From: Synergistota bacterium
GTDB taxonomy: Bacteria; Synergistota; GBS-1
Reading direction: 5' to 3'
Assembly (NCBI GenBank): GCA_025060595.1
Contig: JANXBX010000010.1
Span: 1 to 64,000 of the forward strand
Length of the DNA: 64,000 bases
The notes below the pieces were generated by a model that made no database searches, was not told the origin of the DNA, and saw only the letters and a program-made list of their open reading frames with translations. Position 1 is the first letter of the stretch. The number at the start of each line of letters is the position of its first letter. Of the stretch, positions 47,981-51,584 are shown in pieces. Both the position numbers and the translations under genes were made by a program.

Positions 47981-48952
47981 TTAGGAGAACCTTTCCCTTA
48001 ACTCATCGATATCTCTAGTTACTCCCAAAAGAACCATCAACTTAACCCTTGCTTTCAACCCATTAAGCTTCCCAGCCGGTATGATGCCTCTCTTGACAAG
48101 ATCCAAGCTACCACCACTATATCCATATATCGGAATTACATCAGAACCTGGGCACCTACTTGCAAGAACTATAAAAAGACCATTCTCTAAGGCTTTCTCT
48201 AAAAATGGAACCAAAGAAGGAGGAACATTACCCACTCCCATACCTTCTAAAACTATCCCTTTATAATTGGCGGAAATTAAAAGATCTATAATATCTGGAT
48301 CCATAGAGAAGCAAACCTTTATCAAAGCAACCCTTTCTTCTACTTCATCAATCTCATAAAATTCCCTCTTAAGAAGCTTTCTTCTAAACTCTACTCCATT
48401 AGGTGTTAAACTTCCTAAAAAGCCGTAAGGGAAAGAAGAAAAGGCGTCTATTCCGAAAGATTTTAGCTTTATAACTTCAGAAGCAGCATGAATTTCATCA
48501 TTCATGACCACCAAAACGCCTTGTCCTATAGCATCAAAGCAAGAAGCAACTTTTATAGCGTTATATAGGTTCCTTAAAGCATCGCTACCAGGAAAGCTTA
48601 AAGGATACATCGCCCCAGTAAAAACCACAGGAACAGCACCACCGTAAAGAAGATCCACCATATAAGATGTTTCCTCAAGGGCATCAGTCCCATGGGTCAC
48701 AACTATACCATCATAGCTCTTTGAAAGCTCTCTTATTAAACGAACCAATTCCATTACATCCCTTGTAGTTAAATAACCTGATGGAAGCAACTTCCACTCC
48801 TTAACTTCTATCTCCGAAACATTTGAAGGAAGAACAGGTAGCTTGCTAACAAGATCCGCACCTTTAAGGCGAGGCATCAGCCCACTGTTTCCAGACTCAT
48901 CCATTGAAATAGTCCCACCTGTAGTTATAATAGCAATCCTATTTTCCCCGAT
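47981..48952 (-). CDS. L-asparaginase, read from an AUC start codon
   Basis: Type I cytoplasmic-like asparaginase. The N-terminal catalytic motif ITTGGTIS (nucleophile Thr11) lies upstream of the first ATG (48904), which encodes only residue 17. No ATG, GTG or TTG precedes it in frame back to a stop codon. The best reading is an ATC at 48952, nine bases after GGGGGAGG, giving MGENRIAIITTGGTISMDES and 323 residues. Further motifs are VVTHGTDALEET (Thr89/Asp90), TGAMYPLS and GMGVGNVPPSL. Starting at 48904 would delete the nucleophile. If no AUC start is used, the gene would need a nonstandard one or the assembly has an error. Follows the aminotransferase gene by 115 bp. Confidence 0.82.
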   Translation of the reverse strand: MGENRIAIITTGGTISMDESGNSGLMPRLKGADLVSKLPVLPSNVSEIEVKEWKLLPSGYLTTRDVMELVRLIRELSKSYDGIVVTHGTDALEETSYMVDLLYGGAVPVVFTGAMYPLSFPGSDALRNLYNAIKVASCFDAIGQGVLVVMNDEIHAASEVIKLKSFGIDAFSSFPYGFLGSLTPNGVEFRRKLLKREFYEIDEVEERVALIKVCFSMDPDIIDLLISANYKGIVLEGMGVGNVPPSLVPFLEKALENGLFIVLASRCPGSDVIPIYGYSGGSLDLVKRGIIPAGKLNGLKARVKLMVLLGVTRDIDELRERFS

Positions 48953-49067
48953 TTTAAAACACCTCCCCCTTAAAAGATTTTAACATAAAAGTTGCCACCA
49001 AATGATTCACAGGAAACTTATAACTTCTTTAATTATTGTTAATTTGCTCCATGAAATTAAAACTTCC

Positions 49068-50354: not shown

Positions 50355-51584
50355 CTATCCCTCTCCCTCCCTTAAAAAATCCAATATGCTTAAAGCATAT
50401 ATCTTAGCTGTATCAAGAAGGTCTTCTATAATAACATACTCATCCACCTGATGAGGAATCTCCCTTTCTCCCGCTCCTATCACTACTACAGGGATGTTTT
50501 TCCAAGCCCTTAAGAAAGTCCCATCGGTAGCTCCAGGAACACCGTTATAAATAGGCTCTTTCCCCTTAACCTTTCGGTAAGCTCTATGAACTGCCTTAAC
50601 TATGGGATCATCCTTAGGGGTACTGACGCAAGGTCTTCTCTCTAAAACCTCAAGCTCATAATTAAAATCCGTAATCTCAAGTTTTATACTATCTAAGCAA
50701 GCTTTGATTCTCTCTATTAAATCAATATCATCCTGCCCCGGAATAGTCCTTATATCATATCCTATCAAACAATCCTCAGGTATAACATTAAGCTGACCTT
50801 TACCATTAGAAGGGGACATAACAACCGTAGGCGTTATACTCGGATAACCAAGATACTCATGAGCCTTCAGTCTTTCCTTCTCCTCTGCTTCAAGATCTCT
50901 AATCTTCAAGATTGCTTTAGCCATACCTATATTTGGATTTATACCAGCATAAGGCATACAACCATGAGCCATTTTCCCCTTAACTCTAAGAATAACCCTT
51001 AAAGCTCCTTTTATATCCAGGCAAATTTGATTATCAACAGGTTCACAAATTATAGCACCATCTACATCATCGGCCCAACCGCGCTTTATAAAATCCTTTA
51101 TCCCAATCATAAGGCCTTCCTCATCCACCGGAATGCATAGTATAACCTTCCCTGAGAATTTTATTTCAGAGTCCTTCAAAGCTTTAGCAGCAATTATAGC
51201 TGCAGCTAAATTCCCTTTTGTATCGCACGAACCCCTACCATAGATCTTCCCATCAACTATTTCTCCACTAAAAGGATGGCATTTCCATCTATTTACATCA
51301 CCTGGAGTAACTACATCAGTATGTCCCTCAAGAAGAATAGTCTTGCCCCCTGAAGCGCCCCTAAGAATGGCAACCACATTAGGCCTCTTAGGGGCAACTT
51401 CCTCTATATAAACATCAAAACCTATACCTTTAAGCCTTTCATACAAAAATTTAGCCACTCTTTCTTCATTAGCATTCTCATCAGAAGGATCATAAACGCT
51501 TGAAATCCTTATAAGCTCTTGAGTTAAGGATATTAACTCTTCCTCTTTTATAAAGCTTAATATCTTTTTTTCCTCATTGTCCAG
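50355..51584 (-). CDS. M20 family amidohydrolase/peptidase (ArgE/DapE/ACY1 type), CUG start
   Basis: Dinuclear zinc hydrolase of N-acyl-amino acids or dipeptides. GHTDVVTPGD (metal His/Asp), YGRGSCDTKG (bridging Asp), VDEEGLM (Glu pair), and a dimerisation domain with GKMAHGCMP. The frame continues 42 codons upstream of the GTG at 51458 with a typical M20 start (EEELISLTQELIRISSVYDP), but there is no ATG, GTG or TTG in that part. A CTG at 51584 follows GGGAG nine bases earlier and gives MDNEEKKILSF. 409 residues fits the family; from 51458 only 367. Substrate is unknown. Confidence 0.82.
   Translation of the reverse strand: MDNEEKKILSFIKEEELISLTQELIRISSVYDPSDENANEERVAKFLYERLKGIGFDVYIEEVAPKRPNVVAILRGASGGKTILLEGHTDVVTPGDVNRWKCHPFSGEIVDGKIYGRGSCDTKGNLAAAIIAAKALKDSEIKFSGKVILCIPVDEEGLMIGIKDFIKRGWADDVDGAIICEPVDNQICLDIKGALRVILRVKGKMAHGCMPYAGINPNIGMAKAILKIRDLEAEEKERLKAHEYLGYPSITPTVVMSPSNGKGQLNVIPEDCLIGYDIRTIPGQDDIDLIERIKACLDSIKLEITDFNYELEVLERRPCVSTPKDDPIVKAVHRAYRKVKGKEPIYNGVPGATDGTFLRAWKNIPVVVIGAGEREIPHQVDEYVIIEDLLDTAKIYALSILDFLREGEG

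Follow-up and report, generated by a model that had tools for sequence, protein, structure and literature searches.

The window, the whole stretch of 64,000 nucleotides analysed, shows on its minus strand an L-asparaginase gene in which no in-frame ATG, GTG or TTG spares the conserved N-terminus. Comparison of four species strongly supports AUC as its initiation codon, since the only codon well spaced from the Shine-Dalgarno sequence (SD) is near-cognate (AUC or AUA) in all of them and the first ATG, at 48904, loses the TTGGT motif. The genome (G000; 1.86 Mb, 99% complete, draft in 34 contigs) belongs to the lineage of GBS-1, a bacterium that NCBI lists as unclassified Bacteria only; we take this lineage to be a deep branch of Synergistota (GTDB). 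The choice of AUC as the best initiation codon had been made in the first-pass annotation and is borne out by the relatives; its view of the asparaginase gene as a single oddity has to be widened, with at least ten other genes and infC of the family starting likewise. This frequency, taken from one genome pair, is the more interesting part of the result and may be unusual.

Read from ATC (48950-48952), the asparaginase gene covers positions 47981 to 48952 and encodes 323 amino acids plus a stop codon (47981-47983). The protein shows both PF00710 and PF17763 above the curated cut-offs and contains the TGGT motif, as in the L-asparaginase family; for assignment to type I or type II, both TIGR models score below cut-off. 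Upstream, the frame is closed by a TAA at 48982-48980, and between this stop and the ATG at 48904-48902 there is no ATG, GTG or TTG. The codons after TAA are AAT, CTT, TTA, AGG, GGG, AGG, TGT, TTT, AAA, ATC, GGG, GAA, AAT and AGG, followed by ATT, GCT, ATT, ATA, ACT, ACA, GGT, GGG, ACT, ATT, TCA and ATG (48904). The earlier description of this frame as open and free of canonical starts was right; its codon list skipped AAT, CTT, TTA and one AGG, a harmless gap. Also correct was its placing of the first ATG 3' of the catalytic motif: this codon, 16 codons after ATC, is not plausible as a start, and a protein begun there lacks positions 1-19 of the PF00710 profile, including TTGGT with the catalytic Thr.

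The SD of the asparaginase gene, AGGGGGAGGTG (48960-48970, minus strand), contains GGAGGTG, invariant in the four species. Its core GGGGGAGG (48969-48962) ends nine nucleotides ahead of ATC, the spacing first reported. The SD is strong: CACCTCCTTTCT stands at the 3' end of the 16S rRNA of this genome, and a simple duplex calculation gives -15.3 kcal/mol. Upstream, TGTTAAAAT (48977-48985, minus strand) is also invariant in the four species, separated from GGAGG by a variable 9-12 nucleotides, and is probably an extended -10 promoter element; since no good -35 element was found upstream of the gene, this assignment stays putative. An mRNA made from such a promoter would probably begin near the SD and exclude the sole upstream ATG (48986-48984).

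The relatives compared are G001, of the same genus, and G002 and G003, of the same family. The comparison of orthologous starts proposed in the first-pass annotation gives ATA in G001, ATC in G003 and ATA in G002, and all four species show GGAGGTG followed by seven nucleotides, ATC or ATA, GGN and GAA. Chance is an insufficient explanation, as the four species keep the non-canonical state while synonymous positions around the start vary. Before the conserved N-terminus, the four species contain no canonical codon except one GTG in G003, which sits two codons before TGGT and is formally canonical, too late for use. In other families of the phylum, 22 of 22 asparaginases show ATG or TTG after an SD and within about one codon of the site, and asparaginases from outside the phylum (mainly Halobacillus, other Bacillaceae and Cloacimonadota) start at ATG, TTG or GTG, in most cases 8-10 codons ahead of TGGT. 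With four members near-cognate and other families and outside sequences canonical, the missing canonical start is, on this comparison, a derived feature of the family and not an error. A second asparaginase gene of the same genome (C5:14488) starts at TTG, and one may speculate that one asparaginase is kept low in the cell and the other is ordinary.

Other non-canonical starts were sought by comparing stop-to-stop open reading frames in 1.79 Mb of G000 with those in 0.95 Mb of G003, a genome of about 1.8 Mb; some of this sequence is N. In contig C1 of G003 a run of N of about 70 kb (about 136000-209000), masked or withheld sequence, appears as an open frame of 24,308 codons, so that fewer genes were compared than the sequence length suggests. 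The comparison contains 771 orthologous pairs, of which 647 show a canonical start and an SD in both genomes. A first list of 154 pairs with no canonical start in either genome consisted mostly of shadow open reading frames and was set aside; of the 40 pairs left after removal of overlaps and the requirement for an SD, most show a better canonical start nearby (rplC, TTG) or are ambiguous (yicC). At least ten genes besides asparaginase (ATC in both genomes) show an aligned ATT, ATC, ATA or CTG behind a strong SD and no plausible canonical start. ATC is found in both genomes in the RNase Y gene and in a gene whose product matches no Pfam family and apparently carries a signal peptide; ATT in queA and in a gene for a small protein without a Pfam match, KOW-like by eye; ATA in the genes of the MlaE permease and of a DedA/VTT protein; and CTG in polX (DNA polymerase X), hisB and the gene of an M20 peptidase of the ArgE/DapE type. 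The gene of a GntR/FCD regulator shows ATA in G000 and ATC in G003. The M20 peptidase gene (50355-51584, minus strand, start CTG at 51584-51582) lies two genes upstream of asparaginase, and its first canonical start, GTG at 51458, would remove about 42 N-terminal residues. The open frame of mlaE is 249 amino acids long in each of the four species, with a stop directly before ATA in both genomes whose sequence was read there. In the RNase Y gene and in the GntR gene of G003, a GTG overlaps the SD itself, a poor start comparable to that in Streptomyces sigR. In three further genes just one of the two genomes departs from a canonical start: leuC-like (CTG/TTG), hydrogenase-protease-like (CTG/ATG) and small nucleotidyltransferase-like (ATA/ATG). 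In queA the codon at this place is ATA in G001, and G002 carries a GTG near the SD. In G018 and G015, from another family of the phylum, queA shows no ATG, GTG or TTG before the conserved N-terminus, and GTC, ACG and ATA follow the SD; non-canonical starts may thus extend beyond the family.

Within genes, the rate of aligned ATH or CTG pairs whose SDs both reach -12 or better is 0.00033 per column. For the 124 non-standard genes this predicts about 0.5 chance cases if 12 columns are counted and 2 for all 50 columns scanned; the cut is passed by nine genes of the list. The list was completed by eye, so the count of 11 genes and infC may be off by a few in either direction. The median SD energy is -15.4 at non-canonical and -12.1 at canonical starts, a gap to which the SD requirement in the selection adds. 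The frequency, which comes from one genome pair, may be unusual, and a literature search for a lineage rich in non-canonical starts found no report. It is tentatively proposed, at somewhat below even confidence, that AUA, AUC, AUU and CUG open 1.5% or more of the conserved genes of the family, a share far higher than that documented for well-studied bacteria and compensated by stronger SDs, and that IF3 reads these weak starts genome-wide or a wider set of start codons has evolved.

For asparaginase itself, the explanation we consider likely is weak initiation by the ordinary initiator tRNA, rescued by the strong SD and exposed to rejection by IF3. The CAU anticodon would pair with A and U of AUC and leave the third base mismatched, the SD nine nucleotides upstream would make the weak codon usable, and AUC would keep expression low. 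The mRNA would also be open to rejection by IF3, with enzyme going down when IF3 is abundant and up when it is limiting; any benefit would lie in having little enzyme. By analogy with infC, pcnB, sigR and ccpN, the gene is probably repressed by IF3. An altered or extra initiator tRNA was considered and rejected, since the initiator found is standard: it carries the anticodon CAT, is mismatched at C1-A72 and has an anticodon stem with three G-C pairs. IF3 shows no obvious divergence: of normal length, it aligns throughout with bacterial IF3 proteins whose structures are solved, and its MDYGK and LAPK blocks are retained; nothing in these sequences points to a changed genetic code. In the four genomes infC reads ATT behind GGAGGTG (near 55632 of contig C5 in G000), as in E. 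coli, and in three of them a nearby ATG or GTG overlaps or abuts the SD.

These same observations weigh on the main alternative, that a changed ribosome or factor has relaxed the start-codon rules of the lineage overall, so that AUC is ordinary and unregulated. Such starts occur in infC and in at least 11 of the 771 genes compared, with no common function evident among them, which favours relaxed rules and counts against IF3-checked initiation by leaving it without a regulatory logic; the late GTG of G003 is a further point against the latter. Relaxed rules are nevertheless unlikely, given the normal initiator tRNA and IF3, the ATT retained by infC, which suggests that discrimination is still at work, and SDs at weak starts that are stronger than average.

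Far less probable than relaxed rules is that translation begins at the ATG at 48986-48984 and either shifts frame by +1 at TTT TAA or reinitiates after a mini-ORF. G000 and G001 do contain a ten-codon frame with an SD-like stretch inside that ends in TTT TAA just before ATC, but in G003 and G002 it stops before the SD and the spacing varies. A frameshift of the prfB type would require orthologues to keep the upstream frame, an SD inside it and a slippery stop, which G003 and G002 lack, and neither frameshifting nor coupling is conserved, since outside G000 and G001 the mini-ORF does not reach the start site. Moreover, its ATG lies within the conserved TGTTAAAAT, which would leave it outside an mRNA from that promoter, and the SD spacing suits ATC.

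A sequencing or assembly error that deleted an ATG or GTG or shifted the frame, the alternative offered in the first-pass annotation, could be suspected in a draft genome with homopolymers beside the site, but is refuted by three separately assembled relatives with ATC or ATA there and no canonical start, and is very improbable. Equally improbable is a decaying pseudogene or an ORF translated only from ATG 48904: although this is the first canonical codon in frame, the proteins are 70-80% identical and intact to the stop in the four species, the codons ahead of it are conserved as protein, TTGGT included, and the shortened form would lack the catalytic Thr motif. The asparaginase start at AUC is thus very probably real and of a known kind.

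Gene finders usually admit ATG, GTG and TTG alone, so genes with AUH or CUG starts are truncated or lost and their enzymes may be wrongly called inactive. A family with about a dozen conserved starts of this kind would let one ask how often bacteria use weak starts as a dial, and whether the IF3 level coordinates them.

Starts at AUU, AUC or AUA are found in infC of E. coli, Streptomyces and S. aureus (PMC5472188, PMC13009471), and inefficient, IF3-checked initiation has been shown experimentally for E. coli infC and Streptomyces sigR (PMC5472188). Like infC, which begins with ATT in this family too, the asparaginase gene has a strong SD followed by an AUH codon, and its relatives keep this arrangement; unlike infC, it does not encode an initiation factor and hence has no autoregulatory loop, and its control by IF3 is a prediction. 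Streptomyces sigR starts at GTC and is repressed by IF3 (PMC5472188). It shares with asparaginase a non-canonical codon behind an SD (AGGAGGTG in sigR), conserved in the genus and missed by gene finders, and differs in its codon, in encoding a sigma factor and in an IF3 effect that was shown there and is presumed here. In S. aureus, two further genes examined by experiment alongside infC, cvfC1 (AUU) and ccpN (AUA), have starts with an extended SD that are conserved between species, as is the asparaginase start; that study contains four such sites, against infC and at least 11 of the 771 genes compared here, and the stronger SDs at weak starts are common to both (PMC13009471). The closest parallel is PncA of Borrelia burgdorferi, where the annotated start leaves out a catalytic residue and the true start is AUU (PMC13398362). 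That start was proven by biochemistry and structure, and the AUC or AUA of asparaginase is supported by comparison; both genes encode metabolic amidohydrolases, and in both, catalytic residues are encoded ahead of the first canonical start.
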